Shown in pieces: positions 247 to 64,000 of a stretch of DNA of 64,000 bases. Under the pieces are notes generated by a model, which was not told the origin of the DNA, searched no databases, and saw only the letters and a list, made by a program, of their open reading frames with translations. Source of the stretch: Lachnospiraceae bacterium (GTDB lineage: Bacteria > Bacillota > Clostridia > Lachnospirales > Lachnospiraceae); assembly GCA_017936785.1 (NCBI GenBank), contig JAGBEV010000010.1, positions 1-64,000 on the forward strand. Direction: 5' to 3'. Every line of letters starts with the position of its first letter. The first letter of the stretch is position 1. Both the position numbers and the translations under genes were made by a program.

Positions 247-1626
247 ATGAAAAGGAAATTGAATTGTTGGTTGATTATTTTGTGTATAATGCTTCTTATT
301 GGATGTGCCAAAGTAGAAATATATCCTAAGAATGTAGAAATAGAGATAGGGAGTGTGGCATCTGAAAATATATTAGATTATGTTTGTATTGAAAGTGATA
401 GGTCAGATCGTATAAGAAATAAGGCAGAATTAGATATATCAAATATTGATGTAATGAATGTGGGAGAATATGTAGCAAAAATCACATATGGAAGGGAAGA
501 GGTTATTGTTCCGGTCAGTGTGGTAGATACAACAGCACCGATTATTAACGTAAAGGAGAATGAGTTTCAAGAAGGGGATCAGGTAATAGCGGAAGATTTG
601 GCAGAAGCCATTGATGATTCAAATGTTACACTTAGCCTGTTAAGTAATCCGGGAGGCGTCCAGCTGGATTTTACAACTTTACAGTATGGAGAAAGTGTGA
701 CCTTAAAGGCTGAGGACCAATTTGGGAATGAAACTGTTAAAGAAATTGTTTTAAATATACGTCCGAAAGAAAATTCATCATTTCCGGAGGAAAGGAGTTA
801 TGAAAGACTTGAAGATTTTCCTTATGGAGAGCTGCAGTACGTGGATGAAAAAATATATGCAGAGATAAAAAGTGCATATGAAAATATGGAATGGTACAGC
901 GATTTTAGTAATGGGAAAATAGAGCAAAATCAGTTTTATAAGGAAAAGTATAAAGAATTACTGGATGGAAAAGTAACATTTTTAAAAACAGATCGGTATA
1001 CTTATTCAGAAGTAAGTCAACGGTTATATTTATCTGAATTTTTAAGAGTTGAGGAAGATTATGCACCAGAAGATTTGTTTAATGGTGGGAATGATCAATA
1101 TGGGCTATGTTTTTTTGATATGGATTTAGATAATGAGCCGGAATTGTGTATTGCGGAGAAGGTTGGTGCGGGTATTCGTAGCTATTATATTTTCAAATAT
1201 AGGAAAGATATAGATGAAATTGTTTTGTGGAAAACATTAAATGGCGCTAATATTCAAATTATGGGAAGCGGAATAATAGGAATGGCTTGGGAAGATCAAC
1301 ATTTCGTATTCAGTCGATTAAATGAAAGCGGAGAAGAAGCAGTTTTAATCTATTTTATAAGGGATTTTTTTCATGAATCCGGAAAAGTGGAATATATGGT
1401 TTCGCTTCCAAAATATAAAGAAACGGATCAGCAAATAGAAGTTACTGATGAAATGCAGAAACAGGGCTATTATGATAAAAGTCAGGATTTAGTATTTTTC
1501 TGTGTATCGGAGGAGCAATATCAGGAACTTATTCGGGATTTTTTGATTTCGTATGAAAGTGCAAAAGATAATATAGAAAACGTGACTTATACTTATAGGG
1601 AATTGTTTGAAAAAAGGGATACTTAG
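247..1626 (+). CDS. Lipoprotein with Ig-like domain, family of unknown function
   Basis: The 459-residue product starts with a lipoprotein signal peptide (MKRKLN, hydrophobic core, lipobox LLIGC with Cys20), so it should be anchored to the outer face of the membrane. Residues about 25-165 look like bacterial Ig-like repeats; the VDTTAPIINV motif near residue 95 is typical of DUF5011/HYR-like modules. The C-terminal half (about 190-459) is a separate domain containing FFDMDLDNEPELCI, an acidic loop resembling FG-GAP or EF-hand turns. That domain is homologous to the broken gene immediately downstream (compare EKIYAEIKSAYENMEWY with AAYEELKEVLGQVEWY). The start is the ATG at 247 after a G-rich ribosome site (GAGGGGCGAGGG). 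Function is not recognised; surface binding or a polymorphic lipoprotein are both possible. Confidence 0.8.
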   Translation: MKRKLNCWLIILCIMLLIGCAKVEIYPKNVEIEIGSVASENILDYVCIESDRSDRIRNKAELDISNIDVMNVGEYVAKITYGREEVIVPVSVVDTTAPIINVKENEFQEGDQVIAEDLAEAIDDSNVTLSLLSNPGGVQLDFTTLQYGESVTLKAEDQFGNETVKEIVLNIRPKENSSFPEERSYERLEDFPYGELQYVDEKIYAEIKSAYENMEWYSDFSNGKIEQNQFYKEKYKELLDGKVTFLKTDRYTYSEVSQRLYLSEFLRVEEDYAPEDLFNGGNDQYGLCFFDMDLDNEPELCIAEKVGAGIRSYYIFKYRKDIDEIVLWKTLNGANIQIMGSGIIGMAWEDQHFVFSRLNESGEEAVLIYFIRDFFHESGKVEYMVSLPKYKETDQQIEVTDEMQKQGYYDKSQDLVFFCVSEEQYQELIRDFLISYESAKDNIENVTYTYRELFEKRDT

Positions 1627-27779: not shown

Positions 27780-28149
27780 CTTTTCTGATGTTATGATTTT
27801 TTTGAAAAAATAAATATTGGTCAAGGCGAAGGCAGGAGCATATAGGCAGAATGAGGAATTACTTTTGGTTTTCCAAGGCTGAGTGATAAAATGGTTTTTT
27901 CTAACAGAATGAGAAAGGTTTTGGAAAGTGTTCGGGTCGCCGTCAATGCGGCATCCGTGCCGCGTGACGGCTGAACAGCCCATCCGGGGCTGTTCTCCCT
28001 GGGTTTTCGAGTCATTCTGTAAGAAAAATCTCATTTTACCACAGAAGCCTTGGAAAACCAAAAGCAATTCCTCATTCTGCCCATATGCTCCTGCCTGCCT
28101 TCAAATTTACCGATTTGCCATTTTTTTAAAGAAATCAAACATCAGAAAG
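27780..28149. repeat. Very long imperfect palindrome filling the intergenic region
   Basis: The two halves of this 370-bp stretch are reverse complements with scattered mismatches. GGCAGGAGCATAT (27831) pairs with ATATGCTCCTGCC (28083). The adjoining TTTTGGTTTTCCAAGGCT pairs with AGCCTTGGAAAACCAAAA. The outer CTTTTCTGATGTT (27780) pairs with AACATCAGAAAG (28138-28149). The apex carries two further perfect hairpins: GCCGTCA/TGACGGC (27939-27971, enclosing CGGCA/TGCCG) and GAACAGCCC/GGGCTGTTC (27973-27995). The right arm contains the ribosome site of the next gene. It may be a MITE-like element or a structured RNA leader; no transposase or target duplication is seen. Confidence 0.8.
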
Positions 28150-59917: not shown

Positions 59918-60018
59918 AATTTAGAATGACTTAAATAAGACTGGAAAAATTTCTAAAAGCCAAACGGCTATAGATTTTGCCAATAACAGGCAACAGTAAG
60001 ATACAATATCCATACTTA

Positions 60019-60047
60019 TTGACAAAAAAATTTTCATAAGTTAAAAT
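60019..60047 (+). promoter_or_regulatory. Promoter of leader peptide / amino acid ABC operon
   Basis: TTGACA (60019-60024), 17-base spacer, TAAAAT (60042-60047). Transcription would begin near 60054, giving about 47 bases before the leader ORF and 345 before the first permease. The stretch 59918-60018 contains no gene. Confidence 0.82.
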
Positions 60048-60100
60048 CCTATTATTCCCATGTGAATTATATAAAATATAAACAGAAAGGAGCAGGAAGT

Positions 60101-60250
60101 ATGGCATATAAAATCGAAAAAAACAGAAATACAAGATGCCAAAGAGAAAATATGTGCATATATATGGATATGTGCACATGTATGGGCTGTTGCGGTTCAA
60201 ATTTCAAAATGCTTCCTGACTTACCGTCGTATGGAAATAGTTCGCCATAA
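60101..60250 (+). CDS. Cys/Met-rich leader peptide of the amino acid ABC operon
   Basis: The 49-codon frame with an excellent ribosome site (AAAGGAGCAGGAAGT then ATG) encodes a peptide with six Cys (13, 19, 25, 27, 30, 31) and six Met including the start (1, 18, 22, 24, 28, 37). The core CIYMDMCTCMGCC has nine sulfur residues in 13. It resembles no secreted peptide or bacteriocin precursor I know and has no modification or export gene nearby. Position, between a promoter and an intrinsic terminator upstream of an amino acid transporter, argues for a regulatory leader peptide. Starvation for Cys (or Met) tRNA would stall the ribosome just before the 8-base segment at 60211-60218. Confidence 0.75.
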   Translation: MAYKIEKNRNTRCQRENMCIYMDMCTCMGCCGSNFKMLPDLPSYGNSSP

Positions 60251-60328
60251 ATGCGATCAGAAAATTCCATTCTATATTACGATAGGAGAAAACCGGATGA
60301 AAATGATATTCGGTTAATGGCAGGAAGC
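60211..60328 (+). promoter_or_regulatory. Predicted antiterminator pairing
   Basis: GCTTCCTG inside the leader ORF (60211-60218) is identical to the 3' arm of the terminator (60336-60343). It can therefore pair with the terminator 5' arm CAGGAAGC (60321-60328) and prevent termination. The Cys-Cys codons are at 60188-60193; a ribosome stalled there would leave 60211-60218 free. The region between also has a small AACCG/CGGTT hairpin. Confidence 0.6.
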
Positions 60329-60350
60329 ATAAAAGGCTTCCTGTTTTCTT
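60321..60350 (+). terminator. Attenuator terminator before amino acid ABC operon
   Basis: Perfect stem CAGGAAGC / GCTTCCTG with a 7-base loop, followed by TTTTCTT, ending 50 bases before the first permease start. Confidence 0.8.
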
Positions 60351-60399
60351 GTGCATACAATTCCCTGAGGGATAAAGATAAAGAAAGGAAAGTGGAAAG

Positions 60400-61059
60400 T
60401 TGGATACGGAGTTTATCGTCAAATATATTCCTTTATATATAGAAGCAGCCAGACTGACCATCGGTCTGGGTATTGTTGGAATCTTCTTTTCTTTGCTGAT
60501 CGGATTATTTGCTTCGCTGATCCAATACTTCAAGGTTCCGGTTTTAAAAAGGATTGTGGGTATCTATATTGAATTATCACGGAATACTCCTTTGTTAGTC
60601 CAGTTGTTTTTTCTGTATTTCGGGCTGCCCAAGGTCGGTGTCCATTTCAGCTCCCATGCCTGTGCCATTATCGGGGTGAGCTTTTTAGGAGGCAGCTACA
60701 TGGCAGAAGCCTTTCGAAGCGGGTTGGAAGCCATTGACAGGATTCAGGAGGAATCGGCATTATCCATTGGATTAAAACATAGTCAGGTCATGAGATATGT
60801 GATATTTCCCCAGGCTTTGTCCATTTCGGTTCCGGCACTTTGCGCCAATGTGATCTTTCTGATCAAAGAGACTTCGGTGTTCAGCGTGGTGGCATTGGCG
60901 GATCTGATGTATGTGGCAAAGGATCTGATCGGTTTATATTACAAGACAGACGAAGCTTTACTCATGTTAGTCATTGCATATCTGATTTTGCTGCTGCCCA
61001 TATCCATAGGGGCGGCATGGCTGGAAAGGAGGCTTCGTTATGCAGGATTTGGGAATTAG
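60400..61059 (+). CDS. Polar amino acid ABC permease, first subunit
   Basis: The 219-residue HisM/GlnP-type permease has about five helices: LTIGLGIVGIFFSLLIGLFASL at the start, then YIELSRNTPLLVQLFFLYFGLP, the PAAT family signature. The coupling EAA loop is EESALSIGLKHSQVMRYVIFPQAL. Start is TTG 60400 after AAAGGAAAG. It overlaps the second permease gene by 20 bases. Family members import cystine, glutamine, histidine or arginine; the operon context favours cyst(e)ine or another sulfur amino acid. Confidence 0.9.
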   Translation: MDTEFIVKYIPLYIEAARLTIGLGIVGIFFSLLIGLFASLIQYFKVPVLKRIVGIYIELSRNTPLLVQLFFLYFGLPKVGVHFSSHACAIIGVSFLGGSYMAEAFRSGLEAIDRIQEESALSIGLKHSQVMRYVIFPQALSISVPALCANVIFLIKETSVFSVVALADLMYVAKDLIGLYYKTDEALLMLVIAYLILLLPISIGAAWLERRLRYAGFGN

Positions 61060-61717
61060 AGTCCTGTTTATGGGCAACAATTTCATCCGTCTCCTGGGAG
61101 GTCTGTGGATCACCATTAAGATTTCCCTGATGGCAGTTCTGCTTTCGGTCTTTCTGGGAACCCTTTTAGGTATGGTGATGACTCTCAAAAATCCTGTTAC
61201 CAGATGTATCACAAAGGTTTATCTGGAATTTATCAGGATCATGCCCCAGCTGGTATTATTGTTCCTTGTTTACTTTGGAATGACAAAGAGTTTTGGCATC
61301 AATCTTTCCGGAGAGGTTTCAGCAGTCATTGTATTTACGCTTTGGGGGACGGCGGAAATGGGAGATCTGGTCAGAGGCGCGCTTATATCCATTCCTAAGC
61401 ATCAATATGAATGCGGAGCGGCAATCGGTCTTAGGAAGATACAGGTATACAGATATATCATCATTCCCCAGACTCTGCGGAGACTGGTGCCTTTGGCAAT
61501 CAACCTGACCACCAGAATGATCAAGACTACTTCCTTAATTGTTCTGATCGGAGTGGTAGAGGTGTTAAAAGTGGCGCAGCAGATCATTGAGGCAAACCGG
61601 TATACAGTGCCTGATTCAGCCCTTTGGATTTATGGAACCATCTTTTTCCTTTACTTCATTGTATGCTGGCCAATTTCCCTGTTGGCGGGGCAGCTGGAGA
61701 AGAAGTGGAAGAATTAG
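61040..61717 (+). CDS. Polar amino acid ABC permease, second subunit
   Basis: The 225-residue paralogue of the preceding permease has GLWITIKISLMAVLLSVFLGTLLG and YLEFIRIMPQLVLLFLVYFGM (Ile-Met replaces Asn-Thr in the R-N-T-P motif). The coupling loop is ECGAAIGLRKIQVYRYIIIPQTL. AAAGGAGG (61026-61033) lies inside the end of the first permease gene. The two subunits should form a heterodimeric channel. A 83-base gap follows before the ATPase gene. Confidence 0.9.
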   Translation: MQDLGIRVLFMGNNFIRLLGGLWITIKISLMAVLLSVFLGTLLGMVMTLKNPVTRCITKVYLEFIRIMPQLVLLFLVYFGMTKSFGINLSGEVSAVIVFTLWGTAEMGDLVRGALISIPKHQYECGAAIGLRKIQVYRYIIIPQTLRRLVPLAINLTTRMIKTTSLIVLIGVVEVLKVAQQIIEANRYTVPDSALWIYGTIFFLYFIVCWPISLLAGQLEKKWKN

Positions 61718-61800: not shown

Positions 61801-62583
61801 ATGGTTTTGAAAGAAAAGGAAAAGCTGCTGGAGGTCCGGCATTTATGTAAGGATTTTGGGAATGGTCCTATTTTAAAGGACATTTCACTGGATATCCATA
61901 AAGGCGAAGTGGTGGTCATCATCGGCCCTTCAGGCTGCGGCAAGAGTACCTTACTGCGATGTATGAACGGGCTGGAGCAGATCCAGTCCGGAGAAATCCT
62001 TTTAGATGGAGAAGTCATTACAGGAAATAAGACAAAGTGGAGCGAAGTCAGGCAGAAGATCGGCATGGTGTTCCAGAGCTATGATCTGTTTCCCCATATG
62101 ACAGTTATGGATAATATTTTGCTGGGACCTGTAAAAGTGCAGGGACGGGATAAAAAGGAAGCGGAAGCAGAGGCGGAAAAGCTTCTGGAACGTATCGGGC
62201 TTTTAGACAAAAAGAAAGCCTATCCCAGACAGCTTTCAGGAGGTCAGAAGCAGAGGGTGGCAATTGTTCGTGCCTTGATCATGAAGCCGGAGATCATGCT
62301 TTTTGATGAGGTAACGGCAGCATTGGACCCTGAAATGGTCAGAGAGGTACTGGATGTGATGCTGGAGCTTGCAAAGAGCGGTTCCACCATGATGATCGTC
62401 ACACATGAAATGCAGTTTGCCCGGGCAGTTGCCGACCGTATTGTATTTTTGGATGGCGGAGAGATACTGGAAACGGATACGCCGGATAAATTTTTTACTA
62501 AGCCGAAAACCGACAGAGCAAGACGGTTTTTGAATACATTTTCATTTCATATGGAAAAAGAAAGAGGAGGAAAAGCTATATGA
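61801..62583 (+). CDS. Polar amino acid ABC transporter ATPase
   Basis: The 260-residue GlnQ/TcyC-type ATPase has Walker A GPSGCGKST (about 41-49), the Q-loop VFQSYDLFPHMTV, the signature LSGGQKQR, Walker B IMLFDEVTAALDPE (Val replaces Pro in the usual DEPT/DEPL) and VTHEM. The C-terminus lacks any NIL domain, unlike MetN at 46799, so methionine feedback on the ATPase is not expected. The stop overlaps the ATG of the binding protein (ATGA). Confidence 0.92.
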   Translation: MVLKEKEKLLEVRHLCKDFGNGPILKDISLDIHKGEVVVIIGPSGCGKSTLLRCMNGLEQIQSGEILLDGEVITGNKTKWSEVRQKIGMVFQSYDLFPHMTVMDNILLGPVKVQGRDKKEAEAEAEKLLERIGLLDKKKAYPRQLSGGQKQRVAIVRALIMKPEIMLFDEVTAALDPEMVREVLDVMLELAKSGSTMMIVTHEMQFARAVADRIVFLDGGEILETDTPDKFFTKPKTDRARRFLNTFSFHMEKERGGKAI

Positions 62584-64000
62584 AAAAATTTTTAACATTA
62601 CTATTAACATTTGCACTTGCTTTGGGAGCTTTGACCGGATGCGGCAATAAGACCGAAGAAACTGCAGCAGAAAACGGACAGAGCAAAAGCGGAGAGGATA
62701 CAGATGCCGTTTACCGCACTCTGGATGAGATCAAAGAAAGCGGTACCATCAAAATCGGCGTTTTCAGTGACAAAAATCCTTTTGGTTATGTAGATGAAAA
62801 GGGAGACTATCAGGGCTATGACGTTTATTTTGCAGAACGCCTTGCAAAGGATCTGGGTGTGGATGTGGAATATGTTTCCACAGAAGCCGCAAGCCGTGTG
62901 GAATATCTGGAAAGCGGAAAGGTAGATATCATTCTTGCCAACTTTACCGTTACCGAAGAGCGTGCGGAATCTGTTGATTTTGCATTACCTTATATGAAAG
63001 TAGCTCTGGGCGTTGTATCTCCTGATGATGCGCTGATCACTTCACCTGAAGAATTAAGCGGTAAAACACTGATCGTCACAAAGGGAACAACAGCAGAAAC
63101 ATTCTTTACGGAAAACTATCCTGATGTGAATTTATTAAAATTTGATCAGTATACAGAAGCATATAACGCATTGTTAGACGGCAGGGGAGATGCCTTCTCC
63201 ACAGATAATACAGAGGTACTGGCATGGGCGATCCAGAACGAAGGCTTTACTGTAGGAATTGAATCCATCGGTAACCTGGATACCATTGCACCTGCTGTAT
63301 CCAAAGGAAATACAACTTTATTAAACTGGATCAATGAAGAAATCAAAGGATTGGCAGACGAACAGTTCTTCCATGAAGATTATAAAGCGACTCTTGAGCC
63401 TGTATATGGTTCCGAAGTTGATATTGACAGCCTTGTAGTGGAAGGCGGAGTTGTAGAGGGAAATGCGTCTGATGAAGATGCAGATAAAGAGGATGCTGCT
63501 CCCGTTGAAAGTAAAGGCACTATTACAGTAGCAGCTTCCGCTACACCTCATGCAGAAATCTTAGAGTATGCAAAACCGATCCTGGCAAAGCAGGGATGGG
63601 ATCTGGAAGTAACCGTATTTGATGATTATGTACAGCCCAATCTGGTAGTGGAAAGCGGAGAAATCGATGCAAACTACTTCCAGCACATTCCTTATCTTGA
63701 TGAATTCAATGAGGAACAGGGAACACATCTTGTAAATGTAGGCGGCATCCATTATGAACCTTTTGGCATCTATCCCGGCACAAAGAGCGCGCTGGATGAG
63801 CTGGAAGAGGGAGATGTGATCGCAGTACCCAACGATACCACGAACGAAGCAAGAGCATTACTTCTGCTGGAAGCTAACGGCATTATCAAATTAAAAGAAG
63901 GAGCAGGTCTTACTGCTACTGTAAAGGATATTGAAGAAAATGATAAAAACATTAAAATCCAGGAATTGGAAGCAGCACAGGTTTCCCGTGTGAAAGATGA
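62580..64000 (+). CDS. Fused SBP_bac_3 + MetQ/NlpA substrate-binding lipoprotein (3' end cut by window)
   Basis: At least 473 residues, still open at the window edge. Lipoprotein signal MKKFLTLLLTFALALG with lipobox ALTGC. Residues about 50-280 are a family-3 amino acid binding domain (IKIGVFSDKNPFGYVDEKG, VDIILANFTVTEERAESVDF, SGKTLIVTKGTTAETFF). After an acidic linker (about 285-305, ASDEDADKEDAA), a second binding domain of the MetQ/NlpA family begins. Its marks are ITVAASATPHAEILEYAKPIL, IDANYFQHIPYLDEFN, VGGIHYEPFGIYPGT and VIAVPNDTTNEARALLLLEANG. One continuous frame covers both. ATG 62580 overlaps the ATPase stop; AGAGGAGG is upstream. Two SBP folds on one lipoprotein feeding one PAAT permease is unusual. 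Confidence 0.9.
   Translation, partial: MKKFLTLLLTFALALGALTGCGNKTEETAAENGQSKSGEDTDAVYRTLDEIKESGTIKIGVFSDKNPFGYVDEKGDYQGYDVYFAERLAKDLGVDVEYVSTEAASRVEYLESGKVDIILANFTVTEERAESVDFALPYMKVALGVVSPDDALITSPEELSGKTLIVTKGTTAETFFTENYPDVNLLKFDQYTEAYNALLDGRGDAFSTDNTEVLAWAIQNEGFTVGIESIGNLDTIAPAVSKGNTTLLNWINEEIKGLADEQFFHEDYKATLEPVYGSEVDIDSLVVEGGVVEGNASDEDADKEDAAPVESKGTITVAASATPHAEILEYAKPILAKQGWDLEVTVFDDYVQPNLVVESGEIDANYFQHIPYLDEFNEEQGTHLVNVGGIHYEPFGIYPGTKSALDELEEGDVIAVPNDTTNEARALLLLEANGIIKLKEGAGLTATVKDIEENDKNIKIQELEAAQVSRVKD

Follow-up and report, generated by a model that had tools for sequence, protein, structure and literature searches.

The window analysed here is a stretch of 64,000 nt from a Lachnospiraceae genome (coded G000), and coordinates given without a locus label are positions in that stretch. 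Towards its end, the space between an EamA-type transporter gene and an operon for a polar amino acid ABC importer holds a promoter-like site, a short open reading frame (ORF) rich in Cys and Met codons, and an intrinsic terminator (Table 1). The consensus promoter and the strong ribosome site that the initial annotation had read in these letters are both borne out, and so is its 49-codon ORF with six Cys and six Met, provided that the start Met is counted. An intrinsic terminator does follow the ORF ahead of the first importer gene (60320-60350), its stem formed by 60320-60328 paired with 60336-60344.

Two details of the earlier description need adjusting. It had put nine sulfur residues into 13, where the densest 13-residue stretch has eight and nine are reached over 14 residues (M18-C31). 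The 8-mer shared by the ORF and the terminator 3' arm is as described (GCTTCCTG, 60211-60218 and 60336-60343), and the duplex made with the 5' arm extends over 10 bp rather than 8, joining 60209-60218 to 60321-60330. The last Cys-Cys codons end at 60193, which is 17 nt ahead of 60211, as claimed, and 15 nt upstream of the full 10-nt antiterminator strand. Elsewhere in the window a TwoAYGGAY RNA element lies on the minus strand at 27880-28045, and another is found at one of the related loci (L079:3773-3935).

Table 1. Features of the leader region and importer operon, with the predicted cysK leader of the same genome
Feature	Position	Strand	Remarks
Intergenic region	59918-60400		between EamA-type transporter gene and ABC importer operon
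Promoter-like site, TTGACA-17-TAAAAT	60019-60047	+	11 of 12 consensus positions match; such matches are no proof
Operator-like palindrome	60048-60064	+	left half CCTA, right half degenerate; by eye
Shine-Dalgarno sequence, AAAGGAG	60086-60092	+	8 nt upstream of ATG
Possible segment 1, CAGGAAG	60093-60099	+	complementary to 60212-60218
Leader ORF, 49 codons	60101-60250	+	6 Cys, 6 Met (start counted)
Cys/Met core, M18-C31	60152-60193	+	9 of 14 residues; final Cys-Cys at 60188-60193
Antiterminator strand, ATGCTTCCTG	60209-60218	+	within leader ORF
Local hairpin	60291-60315	+	between leader ORF and terminator; in minimum-energy folds
Terminator 5' arm	60320-60330	+	also antiterminator partner
Terminator 3' arm and U-rich tail	60336-60350	+	
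Permease, polar amino acid ABC importer	60400-61059	+	TTG start; PF00528, HEQRo_perm_3TM
Second permease (polar-amino-acid type)	61040-61717	+	PF00528
ATPase	61801-62583	+	PF00005; nearest NCBIfam GlnQ and TcyN, both below cut-off
Binding lipoprotein, SBP_bac_3 fused to MetQ/NlpA domain	62580-63998	+	PF00497, PF03180; continues past window end
cysK leader ORF	L281, 62-172 (G000:C34)	reverse complement	

Composition and folding of the window leader

Among 2369 ORFs of 25-80 aa in 283 kb of sequence (the window and 32 orthologous loci), five reach eight Cys plus Met in 13 residues, and all five sit just upstream of the operon of this importer type. The 8-mer GCTTCCTG is found five times on the plus strand of the window. 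The part of the ORF that follows the Cys codons forms a duplex of -22.4 kcal/mol with the terminator 5' arm, a value that 9 of 2000 dinucleotide shuffles attained. The fold of RNA 60205-60335, which the 10-bp antiterminator closes, has z = -4.18, and none of 200 shuffles did as well. With the 3' arm included, as in RNA 60190-60352, the fold does not stand out (z = -1.52, 14 of 200 shuffles). Since two terminator-like sites were seen in 2000 bases against 1.7 expected, the terminator by itself is not significant; its link to the leader ORF, unlike the terminator alone, is beyond chance.

When the growth of the transcript is included in the calculation and the strand is left free, the antiterminator has a probability of 1.00 before the 3' arm is made and shares the equilibrium with the terminator thereafter (0.50 each); with the strand unavailable, the terminator forms with a probability of 1.00. 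As for the default termination that a segment 1:2 pairing would give an attenuator that is not being translated, the window offers a possible segment 1, whose pairing dominates the ribosome-free RNA until the 5' arm is made, but its complete naked leader prefers the antiterminator (P 0.77).

Leaders at related importer operons and in a wider family

A search of 195 relatives with the binding protein gave matches in 66 (E ≤ 1e-60), of which nine span the whole fusion; 32 loci were fetched and 31 upstream regions examined, the window included, with L083 and L087 left out on account of contig ends. The conservation of Cys and Met codons that had been proposed as a check is found at part of these loci: a Cys-rich leader ORF lies upstream in six of the nine SBP3-MetQ fusion loci (the window, L063, L064, L065, L067 and L068), while L062, L066 and L069 have the fusion importer without a leader. 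L062 (genome G006) is the nearest relative with a fusion importer (87% protein identity) and has its promoter directly 5' of the operon. Two SBP3-only loci, L072 and L079, also have a Cys-rich leader ORF upstream; ORFs with at least four Cys in L071, L077, L082 and L092 were judged to be non-leaders, the L092 case being ambiguous. The leader peptide by itself was uninformative as a query, matching 73 of the 195 genomes at E ≤ 1 (G000 included) with a best foreign E of about 0.005 that we take as noise, and a search of the genome contig collection with it returned no relative.

Compensatory changes, the second check proposed, are present between the window and its congener. There, the leader peptide MTMRNVCCYNRMMRCCWNARMLPRLFVGQSL (L063) stands before the same operon and its strand GCTTCCCA pairs with TTGGGAAGC, as GCTTCCTG does with CAGGAAGC in the window, the last two pairs being changed on both sides. 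Cognate pairing beats all swaps in both (window, -22.4 against -18.0 for the best swap; L063, -25.6 against -22.7). At L072, with its Cys-rich leader and terminator, the check fails, the cognate pairing of the segments as placed being no better than swaps (-12.8 against a mean of -12.9).

The orthologous operon is preceded by a T-box in two genomes of one genus (L084 and L085). The Rfam alignment of L084 has UGC at the specifier, and L085 is identical there; the specifier position is our own reading of the alignment, in line with the consulted part of PMC2940859. A third locus from that genus, L088, gave no T-box match, and a permissive Rfam search of nine further orthologous loci returned nothing.

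Within the source genome itself, the main cysK gene (L281) has a Shine-Dalgarno-led ORF 86 nt upstream, MKRKLKTTSCMMQRCYCRTGCRKAVCFSMCCGAMQQ, with seven Cys and five Met in 36 aa. No T-run of four or more lies between this ORF and cysK, on a contig that ends 258 nt upstream of the gene; lacking the terminator part, any switch there would have to work otherwise. This locus is one of 11 upstream of sulfhydrylase and cysK genes in G000, G004 and G006 that were checked, none with an Rfam match. For the nine loci besides L281 and L274, cysK of G004 and G006 included, the upstream ORFs listed comprise none with at least three Cys. L274, the sulfhydrylase locus of G000, has a small ORF from 252 to 162 nt upstream that ends in DAMCRMR, with two Cys and TGCCGAATG as in the leaders described next; it is perhaps a decayed leader and is excluded from leader counts.

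Predicted leaders of a similar kind, with the core CCRML.SRA, precede sulfur genes in Lachnospiraceae and other Clostridia, many of them from gut or rumen. At E ≤ 0.3 a five-leader profile hit 115 of 299 family genomes, in many cases by chance; its top five hits are its own seeds, and the best new match has E 1.1e-10. From 30 returned loci, 24 (five seeds and 19 new) make up the first sample. L147, L148, L151, L152 and L153 were discarded by eye as non-leaders, and L129, a good leader before a sulfhydrylase-like gene, is absent from all counts. First-sample leaders share one layout: a Cys run within a short ORF is followed by CGAATG (or a variant of it) and by a strand resembling CTCCCGGGCA, and further downstream come the complementary arm and terminator, L144 being an exception with no clear T-run after the arm. 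In nearly all leaders the Cys run stands directly before the strand, a position partly built into the search pattern. The Arg that follows the run is nearly always encoded by CGA (the second-sample pattern requires this codon, which is frequent in the first sample as well), and many of the peptides end in Arg-Cys before the stop.

With the 24 leaders aligned, helix 1 is paired in 97.1% of cells and helix 2, which is less certain, in 64.8%; both together are 85.1% paired against 22-50% in slid controls. Double-sided changes occur at four of ten antiterminator pairs (AU for GC at three, UA for AU at one). Further pair types, one of five covariation measures, are not unusual (107 of 500 shuffles), and these controls ignore relatedness. 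The cognate duplexes average -27.3 against -24.2 for swaps, with 0 of 20,000 permutations as good; taken singly, only three leaders come first among the 24 arms, and L133 comes last. Before the 3' arm exists the antiterminator is favoured in all 24. Segment 1 is absent as a family trait in 20 leaders, and the idea that the Shine-Dalgarno region pairs with the strand throughout the family did not hold (mean -5.9 kcal/mol against -6.6 for shuffles in the 20 leaders scored, 22 having been taken and two being without a strand located by the script).

The second sample, which partly overlaps the first, consists of 81 pattern matches at 80 loci of a genome-contig scan that gave at least 120 stretches. 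Among the matches listed, 80 of the 81 fall within ORFs shorter than 80 codons. An arm with 10/10 complementarity, G-U allowed, follows within 303 nt downstream in 73, where shuffled downstream sequence gives a mean of 0.3 and at most 2; 64 of those 73 arms use Watson-Crick pairs alone. At 9/10 or better the count is 79 of the 81 matches listed, and because it includes a false positive, the Ruegeria locus L174, and has a chance level of 6.2, we rely on the 10/10 count. Sources among the matches listed are labelled Lachnospiraceae, Oscillospiraceae/Ruminococcaceae, Saccharofermentans and others, and are mostly metagenome-assembled genomes; L215 stops at a contig end. Both samples pooled give 101 leaders with 97 distinct cores. 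For an alignment (A4) of 40 of 76 reference leaders, chosen by eye, the structure that RNAalifold predicts is exactly the antiterminator, and two of its pairs are doubly changed. Two loci of this sample stand apart: L178 has two leader signatures 127 nt apart (1046-1072 and 1173-1199, minus strand) with unresolved letters between them, either a tandem attenuator or an assembly artefact, and L217, on a contig labelled Eggerthellaceae (an actinobacterial family), has a leader with the full signature that would reflect either transfer or a mis-binned contig.

The exact DNA pattern matches 17 of 299 family genomes and two of 398 phylum-wide genomes and misses divergent members like the window; with two mismatches allowed it is useless (236 of 299 genomes matched). 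The family signature TGYTGYCGAATG-N5-YTCCCRGRCA has no exact match in G000, nor has the family profile at E ≤ 0.3, and the window leader therefore gives no sequence sign of family descent. It would work like the CCRML family, and the likeness is one of working and not of demonstrated ancestry.

Downstream of the first-sample leaders lies an O-acetylhomoserine sulfhydrylase-like gene in 11 of 24 cases, ten of them being L134 or more than 80% identical to it and L145 standing at 42%, and an SBP3-like gene in nine (L130 distant). Among the matches listed in the second sample, the 77 downstream proteins comprise 41 sulfhydrylase-like (L178 counted twice), 26 SBP3/MetQ and two CysK proteins; by eye, the remaining eight are four permease-like, one peptidase-like and one DUF2292-like protein, one that is unclear and one that belongs to the false positive. 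Profile searches support CysK (L133), OAH/OAS sulfhydrylase (L134 and L146; L145 below cut-off) and DUF2292 (L132). After one Cys leader follows a gene for a sulfopropanediol-dehydratase-like glycyl radical enzyme (L131:1755-3077; partial and below the model cut-off), hinting at sulfonates as a sulfur source that may be under Cys control.

A palindrome, CCTA-N7-9-TAGG, occurs in 74 of 99 leader upstream regions from among L124-L150 and L154-L233, against a mean of 0.8 and at most 4 in mononucleotide shuffles; 41 have the form CCTATTGACATAGTAGG, around the -35 box. In the window's genus, CCTA-N9-TAGG lies downstream of the -10 box in L281 and L062, and the window retains the left half only. This suggests a repressor site at the same promoters, as a putative second layer of control; CymR control of cysteine genes has been proposed in Clostridium acetobutylicum, according to the portion of PMC3828012 that was available.

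Proposed mechanism, signal and alternatives

In our judgement the element is most probably an attenuator of transcription, ribosome-mediated and responsive to how far tRNA-Cys is charged. This reading, put forward in the initial annotation, is supported by comparison: the orthologue tests are mostly in its favour, and the same architecture precedes other sulfur genes. Attenuators are recognised by a leader ORF with pathway codons and a Shine-Dalgarno sequence and by an intrinsic terminator before the first gene, all of which the locus has, and by an antiterminator exclusive with the terminator, which it has by computation, L072 being the exception to the pairing. The parts, the rarity of the core, the exclusive pairings, the compensatory changes in congener and family, and the sulfur-gene context were all computed; we infer that the leader is translated, that ribosomes stall on it, where the transcript ends and that Cys is the signal.

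According to this model, a ribosome would translate the 49-codon leader and, when Cys-tRNA is scarce, would stall at the Cys codons ending at 60193 and leave 60209-60218 bare. The bare strand would pair with 60321-60330 once these are transcribed, the terminator would be blocked, and RNA polymerase would go on to transcribe the importer genes. With ample Cys-tRNA, the ribosome would cover 60209-60218 while 60320-60344 is made, so that the terminator could fold and transcription would end near 60350. Because the strand is bare again with a ribosome at the stop codon, and because the naked leader favours the antiterminator, termination would require the strand to be covered by a ribosome during synthesis of the terminator. 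Transcription is functionally uncoupled from translation in Bacillus subtilis and predicted to be so in Firmicutes (PMC10953045, in the part consulted), and Bacillota have been classed as runaway (PMC13323073, likewise in part); this uncoupling counts against an easy version of a ribosome-timed model and also makes the model testable.

Cysteine is the likeliest signal and better supported than methionine, because of the Cys+Met density test on ORFs, the UGC of the T-box, the cysK leaders and the codon geometry. The alternative that the same attenuator senses Met, or Cys and Met jointly, with stalling upstream of the strand when either tRNA is uncharged, strikes us as unlikely but deserves weighing: four Met codons are scattered among the Cys codons ahead of the strand, the importer has a MetQ domain, and the eight codons before CGA contain more Met in SBP3-MetQ leaders (1.73, n=15) than in sulfhydrylase leaders (1.11, n=47; Mann-Whitney p 0.007, in a test that ignores relatedness). 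The same importer leaders, however, are also richer in Cys (3.53 against 2.21, p 7e-7), the T-box that stands in for the leader reads UGC, and cysK genes have leaders too. Moreover, the next Met codon downstream of the Cys run in the window (60209-60211) belongs to the strand, so that a ribosome stalled there would hide it.

In another alternative, a different RNA sensor (a T-box or riboswitch) controls the region or the terminator simply ends a short transcript, with the ORF incidental. T-box or S-box control is common for sulfur genes in Firmicutes (PMC2940859, in the part consulted), two of the orthologous operons do carry a T-box, and terminator-like sites are no commoner here than in shuffles. 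Against this stand the Cys density and the pairing, which exceed chance, and the Rfam searches: in the leader region of the window no model is matched at the gathering score, T-box and S-box models included, the best match at E up to 1 scoring 14.1 bits against a gathering score of 174.8, and in 17 family loci the only match at the gathering score is one tRNA outside the leader. We regard this explanation as very improbable. Least probable of all is that the ORF encodes a small protein with a function of its own, as a metal binder or a modified peptide, and shares the importer transcript by chance: the ORF has its own promoter-like site and Shine-Dalgarno sequence, and Cys-rich peptides of other kinds are common, but the window peptide has no Pfam or NCBIfam match, five relatives have none above cut-off, and CRML.SRA, the conserved stretch of the peptides, is encoded just where the RNA pairs with the terminator arm, the peptides being variable elsewhere.

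Relation to known systems

Clostridial cysteine control is mainly described in terms of T-boxes and CymR-type repressors. In open-licence literature we found no Cys leader-peptide attenuator in Clostridia. Some clostridia are without a T-box before cysK, and other mechanisms may exist there (PMC2940859, as far as the available text goes); a Cys leader attenuator is a candidate for one of these. We propose tentatively, as a possibility that falls somewhat short of an expectation, that many Clostridia regulate sulfur assimilation through Cys leader attenuators, a counterpart of the Cys T-box in which a ribosome does the reading, and that the importer branch senses Met in addition to Cys. Such an element is recognisable from sequence, and no Rfam, Pfam or NCBIfam model matched it. 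It would unite O-acetylhomoserine sulfhydrylase, cystine/MetQ-type importers, cysK and a sulfonate-degrading enzyme in one predicted regulon, and it would help to predict importer substrates. Transcription-translation coupling in Bacillota also becomes directly testable at natural operons (PMC10953045 and PMC13323073, in the parts consulted). If the proposal is true, selective maintenance of these leaders would imply that the first ribosome keeps up with RNA polymerase at these operons, despite the runaway transcription predicted for the phylum.

Attenuation of the trp/his type is ribosome-mediated, with codons for the amino acid of the pathway in the leader. The window leader has in common with it a leader rich in pathway codons, an intrinsic terminator and an antiterminator that would form on stalling (PMC10953045, in the part consulted). 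It differs in its Cys codons, accompanied by Met, in its occurrence in Clostridia before an importer and, in the family, before other sulfur genes, and in a pairing strand that lies inside the ORF just after the Cys codons, with no segment 1 found family-wide. The Leu attenuator of the Staphylococcus aureus ilv-leu operon (PMC5794164) and the His leaders of Firmicutes (PMC2965389) are, in the excerpts available, also leader peptides with a terminator and antiterminator, and differ in amino acid and operons.

Cys leaders have been predicted before cys operons in Actinobacteria (PMC1262725), likewise short ORFs that carry Cys-codon runs and lie ahead of cysteine genes, and polycysteine attenuators, leaderless by title, are known from mycobacteria (Canestrari 2020, as cited in PMC9094748). 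As the consulted parts of these sources describe them, the predicted actinobacterial leaders are without conserved terminator hairpins, whereas the window has an intrinsic terminator and a conserved antiterminator; and unlike the leaderless mycobacterial element, the window ORF has a Shine-Dalgarno sequence and starts about 54 nt downstream of the -10 box. Another comparable system is the clostridial Cys T-box, which, according to the accessible part of PMC2940859, likewise responds to tRNA-Cys charging by premature termination at cysteine genes. No T-box model is matched in the leader region of the window, and the two would differ in how the tRNA is read: the T-box contacts it directly by RNA, whereas the window leader would do so through the translating ribosome.
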